A stretch of 64,000 nt of DNA from Nymphaea colorata (Eukaryota; Streptophyta; Magnoliopsida; Nymphaeales; Nymphaeaceae), in NCBI RefSeq assembly GCF_008831285.2, contig NC_045138.2:18139934-18203933 (forward strand), read 5' to 3'. Within the stretch, counting starts at the first letter, position 1; each line of letters begins with the position of its first letter. The translations under genes were made by a program, and so were the position numbers. The notes under the pieces were generated by a model. The model saw nothing but the letters and a program-made list of their open reading frames with translations. It had not been told where the DNA came from and did not search any database. Shown here piece after piece: positions 3,609-52,700 of the stretch.

Positions 3609-3673
3609 ATCTTCTACAAGGGGGTGAGAGCCTACTGAAGGGGGAGGAGGAGGTGCAACCGGGGGGTGATAGA

Positions 3674-4212
3674 TGAAAAGAGCCATCATTGACACTCTTA
3701 AAAAATCATAAGCCTCCTCTTGTAAGTTGGTGACTGATGATAAAGTGGTAGAACCTTCACCACCGTCCTTCTCAAACTCTATAAATAGGATGTTGGTCTT
3801 TGTGTCTACCATCAAGAGAGTGGTGAGTGTCTTGAGCAAGAGTTTGGTAAGTTCGTGTGTTCGAGCTCGAGTGTGGAAATTTTAAGTGTGTGCTCAAGTG
3901 CAAAGACGTTGGTACTTGGATAATAGCTCACTGTGTGAGTTTGTTGAGGTGAGTTCTTGTATCTCACTTTTGTAAGTTTCATCTTGACAAATAATGCAAG
4001 TATATTATTTAAGTATACTTGGTGCATTTACGTCATTTTTGTTGAGATCATTTTGTGAATTTTGTTGGTTTGGTGATTATGCTTTTATTAAGTAAGTTTC
4101 GTCAAGTTTTATTAAGAATTGTTTTGAACGTTGATAATCTGCCACTTTTTCTTCGCATAAATTATTTGTTTTTGGATCTAAGTTATATCTAGGGCCCACA
4201 TTTTCACCTATA
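3674..4212 (+). repeat. Copia 5' LTR
   Basis: Begins TGAAAAGAGCC and aligns end to end with 8433-9014. A clean TATAAATAG at 3780-3788 is the likely LTR promoter TATA box. The 3' end (TATA where the other LTR has TACA) has lost the canonical CA. It lacks an approximately 33-bp AT-rich stretch present in the 3' LTR. Confidence 0.92.
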
Positions 4213-6869: not shown

Positions 6870-8330
6870 TATGCCATCATGAAGGAAATCAAGTCAGCTT
6901 CTTTTGAGAAATCAAAAGATGTCGAAAAATGACAAACTATAATGAAAGATAAAATGAAGACATTAGAGCATAACGAGACCTGAGAGCTCATATCAAAGCC
7001 AGCAGGGGTAAAGCCCATTACTTATAAGTGGGTTTACAAAATAAAAAGAAAAGTATATGACTCAGTTGATAGATATATGACTCGACTAGTTGCGAGAGAA
7101 TTTTCACAGTAGTATAACATTGACTTTAAGAAATTTTTAATCATGTTATGAAGATCACATCTATATGTATGTTGATAGCTAGCGGGCAAGCATGTCTTGG
7201 AAGCTACTGGAAAATGAATGTGAAGAATGCTTTCTTGCATGAAAATCTCGATTATGAAATCTATATGGAGCAGCCTGAATGATTCAAGTTTCCAAACAAG
7301 CCAGACTACATCTGCAAACTAAGAAAAGCACTATATGGATTGAAGCAAGCATCTAAAACATGGTATAGGAAAATAACTGAATTTTTGGTGTTTAGTAGAT
7401 TCCAAGTCGCCTCAGCAGATTTGAGTCTCTTCAACAAGACAAGAGGTATGAAGATTACTCTTTTGTTAATTTATGTTGATGATTTAATTATTACTGAAGA
7501 TAACAAGGAAGCAATTAATCTCATTCGTGAACATCTCACAGTGAAATTCAAAATGAAAGAGATGGGGTAATTGCGACACTTCATTGGATTGCAAATTGAT
7601 TATGAATCTAAATAATTATTTTTAAGTAAAAAAAAAGTATGCTTGTAACTTACTACATAAGTATGGTATGCACGATCGCATACATATCTCAACACCAATT
7701 AAGATAAATGCAAAACTTAGAATTGATGAAGGAGACAAGCTAGAAGATGTCACTATGTACATACAACTAGTTGGAAGCTTAATCTACTTAACATTGTCAA
7801 GACAAGACGTTGCCGATACAGTTGGTGTGGTGAGCAGATTCATGCGAGCTCCAAGGACGCCACATTTAGAAGCAGTGAAAAAAATATTAAGTTATGTCAA
7901 AGGAACTCCTGACCTGGTATACTTTATGGAAAAAGATCAACCTATCAAGTTGTTGGTCATTTTGATGCAGATTATGCTGGAGACTTATCAACTTGAAGAT
8001 CAACCGCTCGACATACATTCAGTCTTGAAAGTGGTGCAATTTCATGATGCAGTAAAAGACAGCTGACAGTTTTATTGTCTACAACAAAAGTAAAGTATAG
8101 AGCAGTGTCTCAAGCACAAGAATGTGTGTGATTGATGCAATTGCTGAAAGACATTAAAGAAGATTTAAATTATGTAGTGAAACTCTACTGCATTAATTAA
8201 AGTGCAATTAGACTTGCAGAGAATCCTGTCTTCCATGCTTGAACGAAACATATCAAGGTGGAACATCATTTTATCAGAGAGAAGGTACTCAAAAAAGAGA
8301 TTTAGTTATAGTTAATCGTTGTAAAAGATC
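6870..8330 (+). pseudogene. Copia reverse transcriptase and RNase H (broken)
   Basis: The RT begins with a TYKWVYKIK-like motif near 7020. ALYGLKQA follows near 7330-7355 and the catalytic YVDD is intact at 7472-7483. The RNase H region with RPH-type and KYRA/KHI motifs runs to about 8280. Multiple stops (for example 7568-7570) interrupt it. Confidence 0.88.
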
Positions 8331-14211: not shown

Positions 14212-15480
14212 AAAGGAAGCATTTTTATCATAAATCTCTAGTTTAGGGTTTTAGTCTGTGCTAGCTCCTCATCAGCAATTCACCTCAGATAAGATGAAAT
14301 AAGAGAGAATCGAAACTGTGCAGGAAGGGGTGGGAAACTTCACATTCCCTATTTCAATCCTCACTGTCATTTTTTCTTTTTAACTTTTAACCTTGTCATC
14401 CTTTAAATACCCATAAAACTTCTCTCTTCCTACACCCAATGGCAAAAGATCTTAATGAGAGCTTTCACTTTTCCTCTCAGCAGTAAGATGAAATACTTCT
14501 CATATTCTCTTAGAAAAGAGCTCTAATGGATGAAAAGTTCTTTTTCCGGTGACATTTCCCTCTTGAGGAGGCAGGGTAAAACTGTAATCCAACTTGGAGA
14601 ACATTATACACTAAATTACCATATTAAAACTTGGATTGACAGTTAGCTAACAAGAGATTTTTCTTTCAGTACTGTTGCCCAGAAAGAGTGGGTTGGATTT
14701 CTTTGTTATTTTTGCTTCAGAGAGATCAGGGAGGAAGGAAGAGAGACGAGGCAGAATTTCTGGCGGAATGAGGGCATGCCCATAGGAGATAGCTAACTAG
14801 CATGGTCATGGCAGCGACGAATCAAGGCAATCAGCAGTACTATTACTACTATTGAATAGTAGTACCGCTGGTCGTCTAGATTCATCACCAGTGTGACTGT
14901 AAAGTTTAGTTATCTCCGCAGGTATTCCTCCCTCGCTCTCTCTCCCTGTCTTTGAAGTAAAAGGAACATAGAAATCCGACCCACTCTTTCTGAGCAGTAG
15001 TGACCAAAGAAACAGCCTGTGTCAGCAGTGCCGAAAGAACGTCAATCTGATTCTTAATATGGTAATTTGGCCTGTAATGTTGTCCAAGTTAGATAACTGT
15101 ATTATCCTTCCTCCTTAAGGGAGGAACATCACATGAAAAAGAGCTTTCATCCGTTAGGGCCTTTTCATAATTTGGATTAGAAAGAGAGGTTTTCTGGGCA
15201 TCTAAACTTGGGCATGTTGAAAGCTAAAGAAGAGAAAAAGTGAAAAAAAAAATTAGTGAGGATTGAAATGGGGAATGCGCAGCTCCCTCACCTCATCTCA
15301 TCTCATCTCATCTCATCTTAGGTGGCTTGTTGATGAGGAGCATCAACTAAAAACTTAGAACTGGGAATTTATGGTAAAAGCCTCTCTTTCTCTTTCTCTG
15401 TCCCTGACTCTCTCTCTCTCTTATTTGGGAAATTCGGATTGAAACATGATAGGCATTTACTAACTAAAGCCCAAATGAAA
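14128..15480. repeat. Large inverted duplication, about 0.65-0.7 kb arms
   Basis: The left arm (about 14128-14840) and right arm (about 14850-15480) are reverse complements with moderate divergence. The centre lies in AGTACTATTACTACTATTGA near 14845. Matched landmarks include AATTTCCCAAAT with a GA tract at both outer ends, CAGAAAGAGTGGGTYGGATTTCT and AAATTACCATATTAA. The outer right end abuts an antisense LFG relic. It could be a fold-back transposon or a tail-to-tail duplication. Confidence 0.85.
15293..15319. repeat. (CATCT)n pentanucleotide repeat
   Basis: About five CATCT units, present only in the right arm of the inverted duplication. Confidence 0.9.
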
Positions 15481-26422: not shown

Positions 26423-26766
26423 GCTGATTTCCTCCTTTAAGGTAGCATTTGATTATTTGATGAAAAAATGTTTGTTATTAAAATCTCTGGTATTTAATAC
26501 TGGTTCATTTGTAAGGTGGAAATAAAAATTCGAGGTTCCATAACCCCAACGTCTGCAAATACTTGATATTTTTCATCCAGACATCATATTTTCATGTTTC
26601 ATTCAATGCGGTATAAAAATTTGTGGTTGCCTCTTTATTGTTGAAAAAAAAATTACTGTTCGAGTTGACATTCCGTCCATGCAATTTTGTAGGAACTTTC
26701 ATGATCAGTGAAGGAGCGACAATGCACCAGGTGTGGGCAACTGCCCACACCAGTCTCTTAAAATTT

Positions 26767-26769
<3 letters not shown>

Positions 26770-26849
<80 letters not shown>
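26770..26849. repeat. (TA)n microsatellite
   Basis: About 40 uninterrupted units; its counterpart in arm B (45563-45713) is about twice as long. Confidence 0.97.
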
Positions 26850-26852
<3 letters not shown>

Positions 26853-27227
26853 GCCCCACGCCCCCACCAGATATGAGTATTTTTAAACGAGTGACCCTAC
26901 AACTAATTTTTCTGGCTCCGTCATTGTCGACAATAATCTGGTAACTTCTGCACATGATCACCATATTTAATTATCTTAATTATAAAACAGAAACAATCCC
27001 ACCCCGCCACAAACAAGAAATTATCAATGGGAGAAAATTTTCACAATCAATTTTAGCACAAATAATTACAAACATTTCCATGCCATGCAAAAAGAATTCC
27101 GAAGAAAGATTAAACAACAATAACAAGGCCGAATGATAAAACAAAAGAATGTTTTATATCAAAATAGCTTTTATAAGTATGTTAACATGTTTCTATTTCA
27201 TTTGAACTAATTTTTTCAAAAAAAAAT

Positions 27228-27350
27228 TAAAGGGTCTAGTTTTTATCCCCGACCTAAGTGTCTGGCTTCTACCAGTTTCTTTGAATATATGAGTGATTAG
27301 TAGGAGCCAGACCAATAAGCCACGGACAAAAACCAAGCCCATTAAATATT
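27228..27350. repeat. Short inverted repeat, ~50-bp arms
   Basis: AAAGGGTCTAGTTTTTATCC and CCGACC..AAGTGTCTGGC at the left are mirrored by GAGCCAGACCAATAAGCC and GGACAAAAACCAAGCCC at the right. The matching piece in arm B is at 45140-45240. Probably a small MITE. Confidence 0.65.
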
Positions 27351-27481
27351 ATATTTAAAGTGATTTTTTTAAAATCTAGCCTTACCAATATAACCTTAAG
27401 TATAAGTTGATGCGAAATATATATTAAGTTGATAATTGTTGTGTTTTTACTAGTGTTTTTATGATGAGCAAGAATGAATGG

Positions 27482-27484
<3 letters not shown>

Positions 27485-27532
<48 letters not shown>
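27485..27532. repeat. (AT)n microsatellite
   Basis: About 24 uninterrupted units. Confidence 0.97.
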
Positions 27533-27535
<3 letters not shown>

Positions 27536-27937
27536 ACATAGGAATATAGATACAAAAGATATCAGTCATTTCTCTCCCTCCTTCCACACACGCCCACACA
27601 CACACACACAAAACACCAATCCCTTTGTTCTTAATACTTTTACTTTCTCCTGTTAACCTTATCACGGATCTTTAAATCTAAAATATCGTGAACTTATAAA
27701 AAAAGATGTTTTTTAATATCCAGATACAATTTTGTATGATTTTAATTTGCTTTCATCATTTTGGTTTAACACATCCAACACGTATAGATATGTGCAATGT
27801 GCCCAATTTCAACCTGGTGTTCTGTATATAAAAAAGAAAAACAATGAAATCAAGTGAAGAAATATATATCTATGTAGCTTCTTAACAAATAAAATTATCA
27901 GGTTATTTGAAAGGGGAAAAAAAGGAGATTAAGGTAA

Positions 27938-28372
27938 GGATGCCAACAAATCCGATTTTGATTGGGTATATCCGACCAAACTGTTCCAAAAAAAAATTGG
28001 ATATGGAAAAACATTTAATATCTATTTAAAAAATCAGATCCGATTCGGATTTGAGAAATGACATCTGATTGAAATCGGATATATATAAATATCTGATGGG
28101 ATTTAGATATGGATTTGGATTGGATTTATGTTTAAACAAATACCTTATATCTAATTCTCTTACACTTTGAATGTAGGCCAAATTTGGTTAAAAAATTTGG
28201 ATTTGGATGTTTATATCAAAAATTGGATTATGATTGTAAAATTGGATTTCAGATATGACTTTTCTTTGTTTGCATTTGAATCTGAATTTGAATTCGAGTG
28301 TGTGAACATCTAATAAAATGGATACAGTCGATGGTATATATCTCATTCGAATCCGATCCGTTGACATCCCCA
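27938..28372 (-). mobile_element. hAT-type MITE, copy 1
   Basis: Ends AAGGATGCCAAC and GTTGACATCCCC. The interior is full of ATCCGAAT/ATTCGGAT-like motifs on both strands. It is the counterpart of the element at 44039-44425 in the inverted duplication. No function or coding capacity. Confidence 0.8.
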
Positions 28373-28524
28373 TATTATAGACATCAAAGATCAACAAATA
28401 ATATTGAATAGAAAAATGGGGAAAGTATTTTTTTTCAAAAGGCATGATCGAGGTGGACATGATTTCCAATAAAAAAAAATTATGAGAAATTGATTTAGTA
28501 TAAAATCAGTTAAATTGTTTGTCA

Positions 28525-28526
<2 letters not shown>

Positions 28527-28578
<52 letters not shown>
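28527..28578. repeat. (AT)n(AC)n compound microsatellite
   Basis: About 18 AT units followed by about 8 AC units. Confidence 0.97.
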
Positions 28579-28797
28579 TTGGAGTCCACTTCCTTGCATG
28601 TGTGTGTGTGTGTGTCTAATCAAACTTTAAAGAAATTCACCGTCCAACTCCCAAGTACCGCTTGTGCTACTATTCACAAATCTAATTACATAAGAACTAA
28701 AAAACTCCTCCTTTCCCTCGCCAATAGGCATGGAGTTCCATTTGTGTTTGAGGTAGCAACAACACTATCAATTATGTACCTCGCACCACCTCATATG

Positions 28798-29225
28798 TAG
28801 GGATGTCAATGTATTTGATTTGGATCAGATGTCCAACAGAACCATTCCAAAAAAACTGGATATGAAGGAAAATTTAATAGCTGATTAAAAAACCAGATCA
28901 TATTTGGATTTAAGAAATGACATTTGATTGGATTCAAATACAGATTCAGATATAAACGAATATCCTATTAGATACAGATTCAGATTGAATTATTTATTTT
29001 TAAACATACATCTCATATCCGAAACTCTTACATTTTAAAAGTTGGCCAAATTTGGTTTTCCGATTCGGTTATAAATGTAAAATTCAGATTACGAAATTGG
29101 ATTTTGGGTTCGAATTCAGATGTGACTTTTCTTAGTACGTATTAGAATGCAAGTTTGTGAATATCTGCAAAAGCGGATATGGTTAAGGGTTTATTTGAGT
29201 TGAATTCGATCAGTTGATGCCCATA
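28798..29225 (+). mobile_element. hAT-type MITE, copy 2
   Basis: Begins TAGGGATGTCAATG and ends TTGATGCCCATA. The flanks CTCATATG and CTCATACA look like an 8-bp target duplication with two changes. Counterpart of 43187-43602 in the inverted duplication. Confidence 0.8.
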
Positions 29226-29324
29226 CTCATACACCACAGAGATGTAATGCTAGTTAATAATGGAAGACCTCATTCACATAAAGTTTAAACAACCATGTTA
29301 AGCCCATTAGAACAGTAAATAAAG

Positions 29325-29540
29325 GTAAAACTAAAAGATAATTTATGAATATTTTCATTTAGAAATGAAATCTTATTAAAATTGGAAATGAAAAGGTAAG
29401 AATAGAACATAATTTCTGAATTTGTTCATTTAGGAAAGAAATCTTATTACACATTGGAAATAAAATATATAGGATTAAAAATAATTTATTAGTCTTTCAT
29501 TTAAGTTAAGAAATCTTATTGACAATTGGAATTCAACAAT
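29325..29540 (+). repeat. ~70-bp tandem repeat, three units
   Basis: Units contain TCATTTAGGAAAGAAATCTT followed by ATT.GGAAATGAAA and AATTTATGAAT. The array ends 40 bp before the LFG exon-1 relic. Confidence 0.8.
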
Positions 29541-29578
29541 CTTGTGACACATATATAAAATGGAAAATCCGCCCTAGA

Positions 29579-29656
29579 CACCACCACTATTCACTGGGAT
29601 TATAGAGAATCCCAAGCTTCTTTGGGCATTCATCCGTAGATCTACTCCATTCTCCC
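29579..29656 (+). pseudogene. LFG exon-1 relic 2
   Basis: About 78 bp aligns without gaps to LFG gene 1 at about 1678-1755, including GAGAATCCCAAGCTTCTTTG and GGGCATTCATCCGTAGATCT. It contains a TAG and other changes; there is no splice site or further exon. Confidence 0.78.
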
Positions 29657-37544: not shown

Positions 37545-38200
37545 TCTTCACTCTTTCACCCAAACGCCCCAAAAGGTAGGAAAAAAATTTTTGGGGTCCG
37601 CTAGAGTTTTTGACACCAATTGACCATGGTGTACCTAATGATCAACTCCCCCACAAAAAAAAAAATTCAAATGTAACAAAGACTGGAGTGGAGCCTTTGA
37701 CAATTTTAAATTCATTTAAGAAAACACAAGCAGCCGTGAACGATTGTTATTGTTATGTTTCAAACTACGTCTCAAGGGCAGCCGCTTTTATGAAAGAGAA
37801 AGGAGCCATTTGACCCAAAAACAAGATTTCTCGCACTAGCCAACAGCTAGCGGTATGCTTGGGCATTAGGCCTCACGTGGCATAGAAATTGAGCACCTCG
37901 TCAGCTCGGGTGAACCCGATTCAATTTAATTAAGTCAGATAATTTATATTTATTAAATTTTTATTACTAATATATATAATTATATATTTTTTATTATAAT
38001 TAAATTACATTTATATATTTTTTGTGCTTAAAATATATTTTGAATATTAATTTTAAAGAATTTAAATTTTCCAAAAACTCTATCTCTGCTACATTTGTTT
38101 TTTTTTTTTTTTTTCTTTTGGGGTGATCAATGGGTACTCAATGCTCTCTTTGACTTTAATCCCTTTACTTGGATTTTAATGTGTACGATTCCATATAGTT
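37545..38200 (+). repeat. Dispersed direct duplication, copy 1
   Basis: Collinear with 41185-41800 (CGCCCCAAAAGGTAGG; TTTAAATTCATTTAAGAAAA; AGGAGCCATTTGACCCAAAA; TTTTAATGTGTACGATTCCA). Each copy has a GC-rich GGGCC element with an AT-only core at its centre, so that insertion preceded the duplication. Confidence 0.85.
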
Positions 38201-41184: not shown

Positions 41185-41800
41185 GCCCCAAAAGGTAGGG
41201 AAAAAATTTTTGAAAAAAAAAAAAATCAAATGTAACAAAGACTTGAGTTTTTGACAATTTTAAATTCATTTAAGAAAACACAAGCACAGCCGTGAACAAT
41301 TGTTATGTTTCAAACTACATGTCAAGGGCCAGCCACTTTTACATAACGAAAGACAAAAGGAGCCATTTGACCCAAAAACAAGTTGGGTCTTTATCTTTTG
41401 CATGCATGGTGGAGAAAGGGTGCTCGCACTAGCCAACAGTTAGCAATATGCTTGGATATCGTGCCCGACTTGGGCTTAGGCCCAAGCCCAGATATTGAGC
41501 GCCAGGTCGACTTGGGTGGGCCCGACTCAGTTCAATTAATCCAAATAATTTATATTTATTAAACTTTTATTATTTATATACACAATTATATATTTTTTAT
41601 TATGGTTAAATCCCATTTATATATTATTTTATGCTTAAATTTTTTCTTAATGTTAATTTTAAAGAATTTAAAATTGTCGAATACTCTAGCTGTGTTACAT
41701 TTGATTTTTTTTTTTTTTGTTGTTTTAGGTGATCAATGGGTACGCAATATTCTCTTTAATCCCTTTACTTGACCTGGATTTTAATGTGTACGATTCCATT
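41185..41800 (+). repeat. Dispersed direct duplication, copy 2
   Basis: Counterpart of 37545-38200. Its end is followed by the fold-back hairpin at 41819, which is absent from copy 1. Confidence 0.85.
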
Positions 41801-41818
41801 TTTCTTAATGTGTACGCA

Positions 41819-42286
41819 ATAAGTCCCTACTGGGCGTGTGGAACCTCTATGATTCGGATCATAGAGGTTCTCATGTTAATTCCTCTGAAGGAGCCCGCTT
41901 TTGCTTTTGCTTTCGCCCTTTACATCCACTTGAAAACTGGCCACGCCATCGTTCATTTTTGGCAAAGATGAGAACACTTTTCAACTTGGTAGAATAATAT
42001 AAAAGGTAATAAAGTTTCAAAGAGCCTTCAAATACATTATAAAGCTTGATTCATGAAAGTTGAACCAAATGAGAAATTTCTCATGTGGAACCTCTATACC
42101 TTTTATATTATTCTACCAAGTTGAAAAGTGTTCTCATCTTTGCCAAAAATGAACGATGGCGTGGCCAGTTTTCAAGTGGATGTAAAGGGCGAAAGCAAAA
42201 GCAAAAGCAGGCTCCTTCAGAGGAATTAACATGAGAACCTCTATGATCCGAATCATAGAGGTTCCACACGCCCAGTAGGGACTTAT
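41819..42286. mobile_element. Near-perfect 190-bp inverted repeat
   Basis: Arms 41819-42008 and 42097-42286 are 190 bp each and reverse complements with a single mismatch (C/T in GAGCCYGCTTTTGC). The loop is 88 bp. Each arm also holds its own 13-bp hairpin GAACCTCTATGAT/ATCATAGAGGTTC with a 4-nt loop, and the main loop carries a further GTGGAACCTCTATA. The frame at 41729-41971 is incidental. No clean target duplication was found. Confidence 0.93.
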
Positions 42287-42764
42287 GCCTCCAGCTCGGA
42301 CTCTTAGTTGGTTCTCCGCATCAATGTGCTCAACGTCTGGTGTTTTTTCTTTTCAGTTTTAACCATGCCATCGTTTAAATCCTCATAAAACATCTTGCTT
42401 TTTAAAAGAGATACGGTGAGCAGAAATGGTGAAGAAAGCACCCTTCTTACTCTACCCAAGAACAGTGAAGAAACATTTTTGGCAAGTCTACTTGGAAATC
42501 AACCAAGTTGGCTCGGCTTTGTTGGGTCATGATTCAGAACCCAAGCCAGTTAGCACCAAAATTAGGCCATAGTGGCCGACTCGCTGGATTTAATGCAACA
42601 GTCCAAGTTTGGTTCAACTGTTTTAAAGTGTAAAAACTAATCTGTGGTCCTTAGTTTTTCAGCCATTTTTTTACTTTTTTTTTTCTCTCTAATGAAAGCT
42701 TTTAGTGGGGGCATGAAGCAGTACATAGGAAGGAAACAAAAGTGGTACGGCGCAGGAAGAGTGG
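42287..42764. other. Intergenic DNA
   Basis: No gene seen; the 65-codon frame at 42644-42841 overlaps an antisense LFG relic. Confidence 0.45.
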
Positions 42765-42767
42765 AGT

Positions 42768-42836
42768 GGGGGAGTGAATCTACGGATGAATGCCAACAAA
42801 AGCTAGGGATTCTCTATCATTACGGTGGTGCGTGGG
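42768..42836 (-). pseudogene. LFG exon-1 relic 4 (antisense)
   Basis: The minus strand reads CACCACCGTAATGATAGAGA then ATCCCTAGC, TTGGCATTCATCCGTAGATT, homologous to LFG exon 1. It is followed on the minus strand by unrelated sequence. Confidence 0.7.
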
Positions 42837-43186
42837 GTTGATTTTTCATTTTATATATGTATCTCCAGCTTGTTGAATTTCAATTGTCAATAAGATTTCT
42901 TTCCTAAATGAAAGATTAATAAATTATTTTTTTAATCCTATATTTTTTTTTCAAGTTCTAATAAGATTTCTTTCTTAAATGAAAAGATTCATAAATTATG
43001 TTTTATTCTTACCTTTTCATTTCCAATTTTAATAAGATTTTTATTACTAAATTAAAATATTCATGAATTATCTTTAAGATTTATCTTTATTTACTGCCCT
43101 AAAGGGCTTAACTTAGTTGTTTGAGCTTTTTGGTAAAAGAGGTTTTCCATTATTAGCCAGCATTATATCTCTATGGTGTATGAGTA

Positions 43187-43602
43187 GGGATGTCAAGTGA
43201 TCAAATTCAACTCAAATGTACCATTCACTGTATCCGCTTTTGCAGATATTTACAAACTCGCATTCTAATACGAACTAAGAAAAGTGACGTCCAAATTCGA
43301 ACCTGAAATCCAATTTCATAATCTGAATCTGAATTTTACATTTATAACCAAATACAAATTTTGAACCAAATTTGACCAACTTTAAAAATGTAAGAGTATC
43401 GGATATGGGATATTTGTTTAAAAATAAATATTTCAATTCGAATCTGTATCTAATAGGATATTTATTTGTGTATTCAAATTCAATCAGATTTCATTCCTTA
43501 AATCTAAATATGATTTTTTTTTAATCAGATACTAAATTTTCCATCATATCCAATTTTTTTGGAATGGTTCTGTGGACGTTGCAAGTACATTGACATCCCT
43601 AC
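43187..43602 (-). mobile_element. hAT-type MITE, copy 3
   Basis: TAGGGATGTCAAGTG at one end and CATTGACATCCCTA at the other. Counterpart of 28798-29225, so it was inserted before the inverted duplication arose. Confidence 0.8.
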
Positions 43603-44038
43603 CATATATGAAGTGAAGCGAGGTACCTAATTGACAGTGTTGTCGCTACATCAAATACGGATGCAATTTTGTGCCTTATTGGCGAGGGAAAGGAGAGGGA
43701 TTTTAGTTCTCAAGCAATTAGATTTGCAAACAGCAGCACAAACTGTGCTGAGAGTTGGATGGCCTAGCTAGGTCACATAAAAGTGAATTTCATTAAAGTT
43801 TAATTGCACACACACACACACAAGGAAGTCGACTCCAAGTTAGCCTCCAAAGTTTTATGGTAAGAAAAAGATACTCTCAAGATCTGTGTCAAACAACTTA
43901 ACTCATTTTACACTAAATAAATTTCTCTTAATTTTTTGTTATTGAAAATCATGTCCACCTCGATCATGCCTTTTGAAAATAATTACTATCGCAATTTTTT
44001 TGTGCAATATTATTCGTTGATCTTTGATGTCCTTAATC

Positions 44039-44425
44039 TAGGGATGTCAATGGATCGGAGTCGAATGAGATACATACCCTCGACTGTATCCATTTTATTC
44101 GATGTCTACATACTCGGAAACTTCAGATTCAAATACGAACGGAGAAAAATCATATCCGAATCCAAATTTTTAACTGAATTTGGCCTACATTCAAAATGTA
44201 AGAGAATTAGATATATGATATTGGTTTGAAAGTAAATCCAATCCAAATCCATATCTAAATCCCATCAGATATTTATGTATATCTGAATTCAATCATATGT
44301 CATTTCTCAAATCCGAATCTGATCCGATTTTTTAATCAGATATTAATTTTTTTTTCATATCAAATTTTTTTCAGAACAGTTTGTTTGGACATCCCCAATC
44401 TGAATCGGATACATTGACACCCTTA
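44039..44425 (+). mobile_element. hAT-type MITE, copy 4, with exact target duplication
   Basis: TAGGGATGTCAATG ... CATTGACACCCTTA is flanked by an exact 8-bp target duplication, CCTTAATC (44031-44038 and 44426-44433). This is the hAT signature and fixes the family for all four copies. Confidence 0.9.
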
Positions 44426-44840
44426 CCTTAATCTCCTTTTTCTCCCTTTCAAATAACATGATAATTTTATTTGTTAAGTTGCTTCATAGATATAGATTTC
44501 TTCACTTGATTTCATTGTCTTTTTTTTTTCTTTTTTGTATACAGAACACCAGGTTTGAAACTTGGGCGCATTGCATATATCTATAATGTAGGATGAGTTA
44601 AACGAAAAAGACGAAAGCAAATTAAAATCATTATAGAATTGTATATGCATATTAAAAGGCATCTTTTTTTATAAGTTCACGATATTTTAGACTTAAAGAT
44701 TATTTATAAGGTTAAGTGGAGAAAGTGAAAGTATTAAAAACAAAGGGATGGGTGTCTTTTGTGTGTGTCTGGAGAGAGGGAGAGAAATGACTGATGTCTT
44801 TTGCATCTATTTTCCAGCGTCATATATATATATATATATA

Positions 44841-44916
44841 TGACCGATTCATTTTTGCTCATTATAAAAACACTATCGAAAACACAAAAATGATCAACTT
44901 AATATATATTTTTCAT

Positions 44917-44989
<73 letters not shown>

Positions 44990-45064
44990 CCGATTCATTT
45001 TTGCTCATTATAAAAACACTATCGAAAACACAAAAATGATCAACTTAATATATATTTTTCATCA
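44841..45064. repeat. Exact 78-bp direct repeat around a (TA)n tract
   Basis: TGACCGATTCATTTTTGCTC ... TTTTTCATCAA occurs identically at 44841-44918 and 44987-45064 (offset 146 bp). A (TA)n tract (44920-44986) lies between them and another (44822-44840) before. Arm A has a single unit, so this is a late event. Confidence 0.93.
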
Positions 45065-45559
45065 ACTTATACTGAAGGTTATATTGGTAAGGTTAGATTT
45101 CAAAAAAATCACTTTGAATATCATATTTAATGGCCTTGGTTTTTGTCCCTAGCCTATCGGTCTGTCTCCTACCAATATTTAGAGAAACTGGTAGAAGTGA
45201 GACACTTAGATCAGGGATGAAAACTAAACCGTTTAATTTTTTTCTTTAAAAAATTATTCCAAATAAATAAAAACATGCTAAGATACTTATAAAAACTATT
45301 TTGATATAAAACATTCTTTCTGTTTTACATCATTCGGGATTGTTTTTGTTGTTTAATCTTTCTTGAGAATTCTTTCCCCATGGCATGGAAATGTTTGTAA
45401 TTATTTATGCTAAAATTGAAAGTGAAAATTTTCTCTCATTGATAATTTCTTCTTTGGGGCATGGGTGGGATTGGTTCTGTCCTATAATTAAGATCATTAA
45501 ATATGGTGATTATGTGCAGAAGTTACTAGATTGTTGTCAGCAGTGTTAGAGCCAGAAAA

Positions 45560-45716
<157 letters not shown>

Positions 45717-46069
45717 ATGGTCATTTAAAAATAAAGAAATTTAAAGAGACTAGTGTAAACTAGTTGCCCACACCTGTCACCATGTGGCTCCACCACTAGT
45801 CATGGGAGTTCCTAGATGAAATGCTAGCTCGTAATTTTTTCAACAGTTAAGAGACGACAACCAATTTTTATACCGCATTGAATGAAACATGAAAATAAGA
45901 TGTCTAGATGAAAAATATGAAGTATTCGCAGACGTTGGGTTATGGAACCTAGAACTTTTAGTTCCACCCCACAAATGAAGCAGTATTAAGTACCTTAGAT
46001 TTTAATTCCAAACATTTTTTCGTCAAATAAACAAATGCTACCTTAAAGGAGGAAAACTTGGCGCTTGAG

Positions 46070-47542: not shown

Positions 47543-48112
47543 CTACGGTGGTTTCCTCCCAGATCTGATGTAATCTTTTGACCATGCAAGTAAAATTGTA
47601 AGGCACTAGTAGGAGAACACCCACGAATGGGAGGATAAACGGTTCCAAGCGCAATCAGCTGAGGACACATTTCAATCTAGATACACTATTAGCAGCAGTG
47701 ATACATTTCTCCTCCTATATAACTCTGGATGTTCTCCTGCTAGTGCTTGTAATTTACTTGCATGCATGGCCAGAAGATTACATATTTCCGGCGTCGGACA
47801 TGGGAGAAACCATCAAAACCATTGAACATCATTCCTCACTGCTCTGATGAGAATGCATACGTGCACGTCTCTGCTTTCCTTAGGAGGGAGGAGAGAGAGG
47901 GATGTTGTGTCTGGGACCCAAGAAGCAAAGCCAAAGACAACAAAACAATAACATGTGTTGAGGGGCAATGTGGTGTAGGTTCGGATCGGGTATTTGGTTG
48001 AACCAATTTCAGTCGGGGCTGGGTTTGGTGAACCACTTTGGTGAATTGCGTGGTTGAGCAAAGGATTCCCTTCAACGACCTTGGAGGGATGGGGCAGATT
48101 GGATCACACATT
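46440..48112 (+). repeat. 1.6-kb direct duplication, copy 1
   Basis: Collinear with 57235-58925. Landmarks are TTGTCCAACTTCCATGCATAA, the ~70-bp repeats (46705-46925), LFG relic 5, GTTCCTACGAGGTGGAGA, a (TA)n tract (47459-47540), the collapsed beta element, and TCCCTTCAACGACCTTGGAG. Copy 1 stops where the PPR pseudogene starts. Confidence 0.88.
46953..47004 (+). pseudogene. LFG exon-1 relic 5
   Basis: CAACACCACTATTCCTAGAG and AGAACCTCAAGCTTCTGTGG align with LFG exon 1; homology ends at GGCCAC. Confidence 0.68.
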
Positions 48113-49306
48113 ATTTCTCATGATTTCAAACCATCGACGGCCCTCCTCCACCTTGCCTGCATGGCTGCAAGCAACCAAAACCCCAACGAACGTGATCCCA
48201 TTGGGCCTAACCATTTTCTCCCTTTGCATCTCCTCAAAGAGGGAGAGAGCCGACTCGGCATGGCCATGAAATGTCAACCCCACAATTATTGAGTTCCAGG
48301 AAGAAACATCTCTTTCATGCATCTGGTTAAACACCCTCAGCGAATCAACTATGCTACCGCATTTTGCATACATGTCTATGAGTGCGTTTCCCAGAACGAC
48401 GCGCAATTCATTGACTGCATCACCTTGTTCCAAAACAGTGTGAATCCTCTTACCAATGTCTAAGGCCCCGACATCAGCGCAAGCCGAAAGTAGACTCAAC
48501 ATGGTAACCTCATCAGGCCTCTCACCCGCCTACTGCATCTCCTCGAACAACTCCATTGCTCGGCTCTGATCCCCACAAAGCACATATCCAGAAATCATTG
48601 CGTTCTCTGAGGGATCTCATTGAACAGTCGACGAGCCGACTCCATATCGCCGCATTTTGTGTATGCGGTGACCATGACATTCCATGAAATCAGGCATTCT
48701 ATCAAACAAGTCGCGTGCATCCTCGATCTTACCCTTCCTCGCGTACCCAACTGTGAGAGCAGACCAAGCAACAACATCTCTTTGAGCCATTTCATCAAAC
48801 AATTGGCGGGCAACTTCCAAGCTGCCGCTACCTGCATTCAAGTGGATGAGAGAGTTCCTTACAAACACATCCGATTGAAGCCCCAGATTTAGAACACAAC
48901 AGTCCACTGGTTTCCGACAGAAATAGATCCTAACTTCGAGCATGCCTTCAGAAGAAAAAGGGAACGTGAAGCTATCTGGTTTCACGTGAGATTTCTCCAT
49001 CTGGGAGTACAGAAAAATGGCGTCAATGGGCACCGAACTTTGAGAGAAACCTCTGATCATGGTGCTCCAGATGAAAACCTCCGGTGTCAGGACATGGCCG
49101 AAGATATTCCGAGCGTAATGCATGTTGCCAGGGATGGTGATGGCACAGGCAAACACAAGCTCTCGCAGCGCAGATGCATCGCTGTTGAAGCCATGGACAA
49201 CCATGTGAGCATGAATTTGCTTGAGAGTGCGGAGGGTGGTGATCTTCTTCCAGATAGAGCTAATGGCCCGCTTGGTTGCGGGGTTTGCCTTCGATTTCCT
49301 AGATGA
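48104..49306 (-). pseudogene. Organellar PLS-class PPR protein, truncated and broken
   Basis: The minus strand encodes pentatricopeptide repeats of the PLS type. The start is near TLKQIHAHMVVHGF (about 49240). It continues through VFIWSTMIRGFSQ, RNSLIH, ARQLFDEMAQRDVVAWSALT, SWNVMVTAYTKCGDMESARR, GNALIDMYAKCGS and NGITFVGVLVACSHAGKVEEG. Such proteins bind RNA in mitochondria or chloroplasts for editing or processing. Breaks: no ATG for the upstream frame (TGA before it), shifted frame around 48900-48950, frameshift near 48695, frameshift near 48610, and a TAG at 48530-48532. The C-terminal E/DYW part is missing: homology ends after FEIMRNN exactly where the 46.4-48.1 kb repeat begins. The gene is intronless, as usual for the family. 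Confidence 0.88.
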
Positions 49307-50699: not shown

Positions 50700-52700
50700 T
50701 GTTTCTAAAACTTGTTAGATGAAGCGTTCTTCACTGTCTGTTAATTTGTTGAATGGTTTAGGTGGTGGTGATAAATTTTATATTTTAATCATGCCTAAAG
50801 GCAAGGACATATTCTGGCGACATGCACAATTAAAAGAAGATGGAAAATTGGCTTGCAATTTTTGTGGAGAAGAATATACAAGAGGAATCACTCGGTTTAA
50901 GTATCATTTAGCTGGTCTTTCATGTCATGATGTTGCTATATGTCATCAAGTGTCAGACAATGTCAAACAAATGGCACTAAAAGCTTTTGAAGGTATGAAC
51001 GAGAAGCCTACAAAAAAGGGAAAAATGTCAAGCTACCGAATAAGTTCAAGTGCAAGTGGACCACATTTAGGTTCTTCCGGTTCAACTTCAAACTCATTGA
51101 CTAAAGAAGGAGGACAACTTCAGACAATTTCAAACATATTCAGGAAACAAGAAAAGGATAATATTGATAGGCTCCTCTTTAAAGCTATGGCTATGAACAA
51201 TTTGCCGTTCAACTTACTTCGATCGAATGATTTCAAGAATTTTGTCAGCATGGCCCAGGATACTTTCCACCAAGTAGTGAAACAACGAGAAAAAAGCTAC
51301 TAGATGATGCAAGGAAAGAGGTTGATGCATATATTGAAGAAATGAAATCTACATGGGCACATTATGGGTGTACTATCATGTCAGATATTTGGAAGGATAC
51401 AATTAGAAGCAGATCATACATAAATTTGTTGGTAAGTTGTCCAACATGTACAATATTTTGGAAAGCAAAACATATAGAAAAGGTTCCTAAGAATGCAGAA
51501 CTTATAACTGAATTTTTATCTTCAGCTATTGAAGAAATAGGGCCAAAAAATGTTATACAGATTGTGACAGACAATGGAAGCAATTACAGAAAGGCAAAAC
51601 TTATCCTTGAAGAAAGGTATTCAAATATTTTTACTACATCATGTGCTGCTCATTGCATTGATTTAATGCTTGAAGATATTGATACTTTGGAAAATGTAGC
51701 ATCTATCATGACAAAAGCTAGACAAATTGTTAAATTCATATACAATAAGCAGCAAGCTCTAGATGTAATGAGAACTTACACAAAGGGAGCTGAGTTGAAA
51801 AGGCCGGGTGCAACAAGGTTTGCTTCTCATTTCATTTGTTTACATTCTATTTTAAAACAAGAAGAAAATTTGAGGTTCATGGTTGCCTCAAATGATTGGA
51901 GACTTGTCGAAGAAGTGGAAAAAGATCATGCAAGAGATATTACACATCTTATTCAAAATGAAGATTTTTGGAATATGGGAAAAGAAATAATCATGTTTGT
52001 GGAACCATTAGTGAAAGTATTGAAAATGGTAGATGGAGAAGGATCCACTATGGGATATTTATATGAGACACTTGACAGAGCTAAAGAAGCTATAAAGGCT
52101 GCAAGTAAGGACAATAAGGAAAAATATATGTCATATTGGAAAATCATTGATAGGAGATGGGCTCGTAACTTGCACAATCCAGTACATGCTGCAGCTGCTT
52201 TTTTAAATCCTCTTTTATTTTAGAAAAAAATGGTCACAATGGATGAAGAAGTTCGTGAGGGTTTGGATATAGTGACAAAAAAGCTTGTTCCTCTTGAAAA
52301 CTTTTCTGAAATAGCTAATGAGTTGGTCACATACCATAACAAGGATCCTACATTGTTTCACAAGGGATTAGCCATGACAATTATTCATACTGCACATCCA
52401 CGTAAGTGTCTCATTTTATTAGTTTTTCTATTATGCAATCAACATTCATTATTGGTTGTGCCCTTTTTTTTTTAATTTTGTTTTGTTTTCTAATTATAAT
52501 AGGGGTTTGGTGGGAGATGTTCGGTTCTTTTGTTCCTGTGCTTCAAAGTGTAGCAATCAAAATTTTAAGTCAACCATGCAGCGCATCAGCCTGTGAAAGA
52601 AATTGGAGTGGATTTTGGGGCTCCGTGTCTTCTCCATTCCTTAAAATCCATCAATCTTAGGTGGAACGAGGGTTGCTAAATGAGAAAATGAGAAATAGAA
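50700..52700 (+). pseudogene. hAT-family transposase (BED finger, DUF659, C-terminal dimerisation), broken
   Basis: MPKGKDIFWRHA from 50791 begins a BED finger: CNFC at 50854-50865, then FKYHLAGLSCHD. After a low-complexity linker the DUF659/catalytic core has GPGYFPPSSE (about 51255), MSDIWKD (first Asp, about 51380) and VTDNGSNYRKA (second Asp, about 51567). The C-terminal dimerisation part has WWEMFGSFVP and SASACERNWS (about 52505-52610). A probable intron with GTAAGT...ATAG lies at about 52399-52502. Breaks: a frame change near 51250 where a few codons are missing, an in-frame TAG at 52221-52223, and a frame change after the ERNWS motif with loss of the final helix. The frame is otherwise well kept, so inactivation is fairly recent. 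Related to the plant hAT proteins with BED and dimerisation domains. Confidence 0.9.

Follow-up and report, generated by a model that had tools for sequence, protein, structure and literature searches.

A young, almost perfect 190-bp hairpin in Nymphaea colorata as a probable scar of template-switching DNA repair

The stretch of Nymphaea colorata DNA analysed here (64,000 nucleotides, hereafter the window) contains an almost perfect hairpin with 190-bp arms, which raises the question of what process produced it. We propose, with a probability of roughly 0.7, that the hairpin is the scar of a DNA break or a stalled fork that was repaired by repeated template switching with a fold-back inverted copy, which would make it a new case of a known process. 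The features on which the argument depends are listed below in window coordinates, except where C1, the contig that carries the window (C1:18139934-18203933), is named.

41190 to 41799, plus strand: left flank, a diverged duplicate unit; its nearby paralogs lie at 37.57-38.19 kb of the window, C1:18223299 and C1:18226319
41800 to 41821, plus strand: putative left-junction filler, covered by three overlapping forward flank words, 41642-41653 (12 nt), 41781-41792 (12 nt) and 41740-41749 (10 nt)
41819 to 42008, plus strand: left hairpin arm of 190 bp, complementary to the right arm except at one position (189 of 190)
41841 to 41870, plus strand: nested 30-nt hairpin in the left arm, 13-bp stem
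41873 to 42019, plus strand: putative captured segment, like C1:23774672-23774849 (L006 4973-5150, minus strand)
42020 to 42085, plus strand: loop core, most simply local DNA (42015-42090 is 92% identical to the paralog C1:18274147-18274222)
42069 to 42084, no strand: 16-nt perfect palindrome in the loop, read from the sequence
42084 to 42097, plus strand: putative inner-junction filler, 14 nt, identical to left-arm positions 41837-41850 in the same orientation
42097 to 42286, minus strand: right arm, an inverted copy of the left arm, defined by arm-to-arm pairing
42235 to 42264, minus strand: nested 30-nt hairpin in the right arm, from inverted repeat finding
42287 to 42619, plus strand: right-side sequence, in place of which the paralog carries an unlike 287-bp stretch
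42620 to 44477, plus strand: right flank, collinear with the paralog from C1:18274510 onward at 88.5%

The hairpin is real and young, and from end to end it occupies 468 bp (C1:18181752-18182219). Its arms differ at a single position, 41896 (C versus T), and enclose a loop of 88 nt; in the search for repeats within the window, the inverted pair extends to 201 nt with six mismatches. Both nested 30-nt hairpins have a perfect 13-bp stem, and TGTGGAACCTCTAT, a 14-mer of the left arm, is present again at 42084-42097, at the inner edge of the right arm. The initial annotation had described this same structure, with its almost identical arms, its nested hairpins and an arm motif repeated in the loop. 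Its statement that the arms have diverged far less than other repeats also holds among the 25 longest of the 70 inverted pairs in the window, where the hairpin reaches 97% complementarity over its 201 nt, against 76-94% in the remaining 24 pairs. One difference in 190 bp fits the very young age proposed at that time, and gene conversion is not required if the arms are young. No Rfam match was obtained at gathering scores in the window, and a tRNA scan led nowhere.

The origin of the loop was addressed by genome searches (407.8 Mb, 783 contigs), which score the best candidates only and skip very common words, so that the absence of another copy means throughout that none was found. The loop matched only the hairpin locus and C1:18274147-18274222 (2/2 candidates). 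This paralogous place, 92 kb away, is devoid of the arms and is followed by the same downstream sequence, since it sits 287 bp upstream of the segment collinear with 42620-44477. Because the loop paralog lies upstream of this collinear segment, the loop is most simply local DNA, displayed by the paralog in its arm-free form. The 16-nt loop palindrome is imperfect in the paralog, where two bases differ, and its perfection at the hairpin would fit a templated correction. The loop also has a match of 12 nt in inverted orientation at 42608-42619, which was discarded as evidence, being at chance level (149/8550 controls). On the right side, a second copy of 42287-42520 was not found among the 40 of 61 genome candidates that were scored, and a 54-bp stretch of this segment is 83% like 14370-14423 of the window.

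Immediately upstream of its loop-homologous stretch, the paralogous region (C1:18271000-18278500) has inverted copies of its own (L031 2009-2693 and 2904-3083), with a self-inverse 685-bp stretch at 92% and a third copy at 96-97%, which match nothing in the window or in the other loci compared. Given inverted insertions in two paralogs, the region may be prone to rearrangement. The window further contains a large inverted duplicate block (26428-29648 versus 42771-46055, about 80-90% identity), and relatives of part of this block occur at many places on C1 and at few on other contigs. Other content includes two ORFs (50719-52223) in which BED zinc finger and DUF659 domains were found, as in hAT-type transposases, and pentatricopeptide-repeat (PPR) gene fragments at 48104-49306 on the minus strand, the PPR domains being found by scan in one ORF and recognised by eye in the others. 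These PPR, BED and DUF659 domains point to a plant.

The palindrome might also be an artefact of assembly or library preparation, as long-read libraries are known to fail on palindromes that are nearly perfect. However, the arms differ at one base, the loop and the junctions are distinct sequences with their own relatives, and a missed adaptor should fold back directly, without enclosing a local loop. We consider an artefact very improbable.

Regarding the left side of the locus, similarity of the flank to its paralogs stops at 41796-41799, 20 bp short of the hairpin. The segment 41300-41818 gave 46 genome matches. On C1, the three paralogs close by (the 37.7-kb copy of the window, at 18177683, and those at 18223299 and 18226319) continue into related sequence that is absent at the hairpin locus, and the two C3 places examined also continue differently past the shared stretch. 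The initial annotation had pointed to the related segment at 37545-38200 as one without the hairpin. The hairpin is indeed absent there, but the segment does not represent an empty-site allele, because its homology ends at 41799, before the hairpin, and it was rejected as an empty site. The left-flank unit has internal inverted repeats (41213-41280 and 41651-41717, 61 aligned bases, 90%), also present in the paralogs, and may thus itself be an old MITE-like element.

Between this end of similarity and the hairpin, the junction is made entirely of flank words of 10-12 nt, which tile 22 of its 22 nt. Full tiling of this kind was reached at 18 of 8082 places in real-sequence controls, from which simple-repeat places and places near the hairpin had been removed before counting. 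A longest flank word of at least 12 nt, taken alone, was found at 138 of the 8082 places, and 1 of 1000 first-order Markov versions of the flank reached 12 nt. At the inner right junction, all 14 nt likewise occur in the left arm; 2000 first-order Markov versions of the arm yielded matches of 11 nt at most, and the 14-nt match was equalled in 26 of 8722 real-sequence controls. Like the donor-like sequence described below, the right arm ends in CACATG at its inner edge, so that this 14-nt match might instead be due to a later conversion. Repeat and left filler have 3 nt in common (41819-41821), an overlap expected if the right arm was copied from an assembled left arm, although 3 nt could be chance. 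At the right exit junction (42286/42287), no templated word was found, the longest being 5-6 nt in the three stretches compared, and this exit without templating lowers the claim of a repair scar but does not defeat it; filler is not a feature of every repair joint. No target-site duplication of at least 4 nt was present within about 8 bp of the hairpin ends.

The inner 147 bp of the arms resemble one sequence of the same contig, C1:23774672-23774849, at a distance of 5.6 Mb. When the 201-bp arm was searched against the genome, five matches were obtained, namely both arms, their nested hairpins and this place (2/2 candidates scored); a search in the opposite direction, with 601 bp from this donor-like place, returned three, namely the place itself and the two arms (2/2 candidates). 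The search for a source locus suggested by the initial annotation thus yielded one source-like place only, which matches the inner arm with some divergence. The left arm and this place are alike at 16 of 16, then 55 of 59, then 72 of 72 bases, and the donor-like place has 7 and 24 further bases missing from both arms. Three of the four substitutions are common to both arms; the fourth is the arm-to-arm mismatch, at which the right arm has the donor base. The contrast between one difference in 190 positions from arm to arm and three shared substitutions in 147, plus two gaps, between arm and donor would fit a later inverted copy or an error-prone first synthesis, the counts being too small to decide. 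We infer that C1:23774672-23774849 is the donor and not a derived copy. The outer 58 bp of the arm had no match elsewhere in the genome, even at E up to 10 (four matches, all at the hairpin locus), and their alignment as diverged donor sequence was too weak to be used.

These results bear on the possibility of a fold-back or MITE-like DNA transposon, perhaps Tc1/mariner-like with a TA target site, that would have captured host DNA in its arms and now be single-copy. Fold-back transposons and MITEs have by definition long inverted arms, and those of the hairpin are long and near-perfect. Each end of the repeat bears a TA (41820-41821 and its mirror) that lies inside the repeat, which makes a TA duplication possible, and the hairpin ends may have distant relatives. 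However, the arm and outer-end searches found no other copy of the ends or of an element, no direct duplication of at least 4 nt was detected, and the left junction is tiled. Moreover, the loop is local and lies in the same order in the arm-free paralog, whereas a single inserted element would not enclose local DNA. No multi-copy element was found in the arm, outer-end and reciprocal genome searches taken together. A transposon origin is thus unlikely, and a clean transposon insertion, given the lack of a duplication of at least 4 nt, the absence of other copies among those searched and the local loop, was rejected.

The joints still hold readable traces, which favour template-switching repair over a transposon. 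Support for a repair scar comes from the one match that resembles a donor, from the local origin of the loop, from the tiling at the left junction and from the 14-nt match at the inner right one, together with the absence of an end duplication of at least 4 nt and of other copies in the genome searches. In the proposed course of events, a broken end next to 41799 would first have been extended by short hops on its own flank, giving 41800-41821. An outer stretch of about 50 bp would then have been added, for which no donor was found, a point that weighs against the proposal, followed by the capture of about 147 bp like the sequence 5.6 Mb away. Thirdly, the growing end would have joined the local DNA that is the present loop. 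At the far side of the loop, synthesis would have restarted with a forward copy of 14 nt from the new left arm, before a strand switch and the backward copying of the whole left arm into the right arm. This scheme takes the matches as copying events directed from donor to hairpin, with the left arm presumably preceding the right arm in one or two events, and with either Pol theta or a replicative polymerase as the likely enzyme.

Overlapping templated inserts have been described for Pol theta in one study (PMC5068794), in which about 85% of inserts were primed at most 10 bp from the breakpoint and snap-back inserts formed a minor part. Of the three flank words at the hairpin, two come from sites 50 and 146 bp away from the break, which departs from this mostly proximal priming and counts against a repair scar. 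Induced breaks in Arabidopsis reportedly acquired fillers from other, unrelated donor molecules (PMC10923293). In yeast, fold-back inverted insertions formed at breaks, with a 41-nt loop and a need for Pol delta; most inserts of that study were ~5-34 bp, up to about 150 bp (PMC11724301), and the 190-bp inverted copy exceeds them, which also speaks against the proposal. In the literature, we found related processes but none with such a junction anatomy, and we make no claim that none is in print.

Alternatively, selection might have kept the hairpin for a function, as a young source of small RNAs (a proto-MIRNA or a hairpin-siRNA gene) that silences the donor region or its neighbours. The initial annotation had called it an ideal dsRNA substrate. 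As a statement on folding this stands, with a predicted RNA fold of -374.4 kcal/mol against a mean of -108.6 (sd 5.6) for shuffled sequences, none of 100 shuffles folding as well; the fold says nothing on transcription. This predicted hairpin is very stable, and as expected of a proto-MIRNA, the foldback has homology to another locus, C1:23774672-23774849, on which it could act. New MIRNA genes have been described to arise by inverted duplication, which is also a proposed first step toward new plant small-RNA genes (PMC3237417), and in Arabidopsis, endogenous inverted repeats that are transcribed undergo dicing (PMC12825306). This MIRNA route, and the expectation that a long inverted repeat is diced once transcribed, as is IR71 of the latter study, make a siRNA function of our hairpin plausible in principle; for this locus such a function would be possible but is not supported. 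No gene was recognised over the donor segment, and the single arm mismatch reflects youth as readily as selection. Maintenance by selection as a small-RNA locus is, in our judgement, quite improbable.

The surroundings of the donor segment were inspected for genes. Among L006 stop-to-stop frames of at least 70 aa, only one of 72 aa overlaps its edge (L006:4761-4979), hence no gene was seen over it. The Pfam scan around the donor covered eight ORFs of the 50-kb region and leaves untranslated exons invisible. Two L006 ORFs (3611-4138 and 7051-7470) had no Pfam match, a 176-aa frame among them lying 0.8 kb from the donor, and of the ORFs scanned, the closest to give a match, at a distance of about 9 kb, is an alpha/beta hydrolase-like frame (L009:4481-5905). 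Retrotransposon reverse transcriptase and protease domains lie about 18 kb from the donor (L007 5967-7277, minus strand). About 6 kb or more from it, ORFs at L008 2804-8549 (minus strand), which by eye we take to resemble a TIME FOR COFFEE-like protein, gave no Pfam match in the two pieces scanned.

Both ideas could be joined in one scenario, in which a repair accident captured a distant regulatory sequence and copied it backwards, and the hairpin is now transcribed into siRNAs that silence the donor region 5.6 Mb away, before any selection. We hold this scenario to be highly doubtful. If transcribed, the hairpin would give dsRNA and could serve as raw material for a new silencing RNA; if RNA is made, it would represent the young start of a silencing locus whose donor is identified.

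Among known systems, fold-back transposons and MITEs share the long inverted arms of the hairpin, which differs from them in that one copy was found, that its loop is local DNA and that no target duplication of at least 4 nt was detected. Plant endogenous inverted repeats and young MIRNA genes, such as IR71 of Arabidopsis, resemble it in having a long near-perfect hairpin and a homologous locus elsewhere (PMC12825306 and PMC3237417). However, IR71 is a transcribed dsRNA of about 3 kb (PMC12825306), whereas transcription of the present hairpin is hypothetical, and no gene is recognised over its donor. The templated insertions, or filler DNA, of polymerase-theta-mediated end joining (TMEJ) combine overlapping flank-copied inserts with sequence from another molecule or place, as does the hairpin (PMC5068794 and PMC10923293); the 147-bp capture and the 190-bp inverted copy exceed the short fillers described there, most of the flank words (two of three) are remote from the break, and the locus is a natural one. 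The hairpin differs from fold-back (snap-back) inversions in the 190-bp length of its copy and in the 14-nt forward filler between loop and inverted copy, but it shares with them, as exemplified by the 41-nt loop in yeast (PMC11724301), an inverted copy set apart from its original by a loop of pre-existing DNA.
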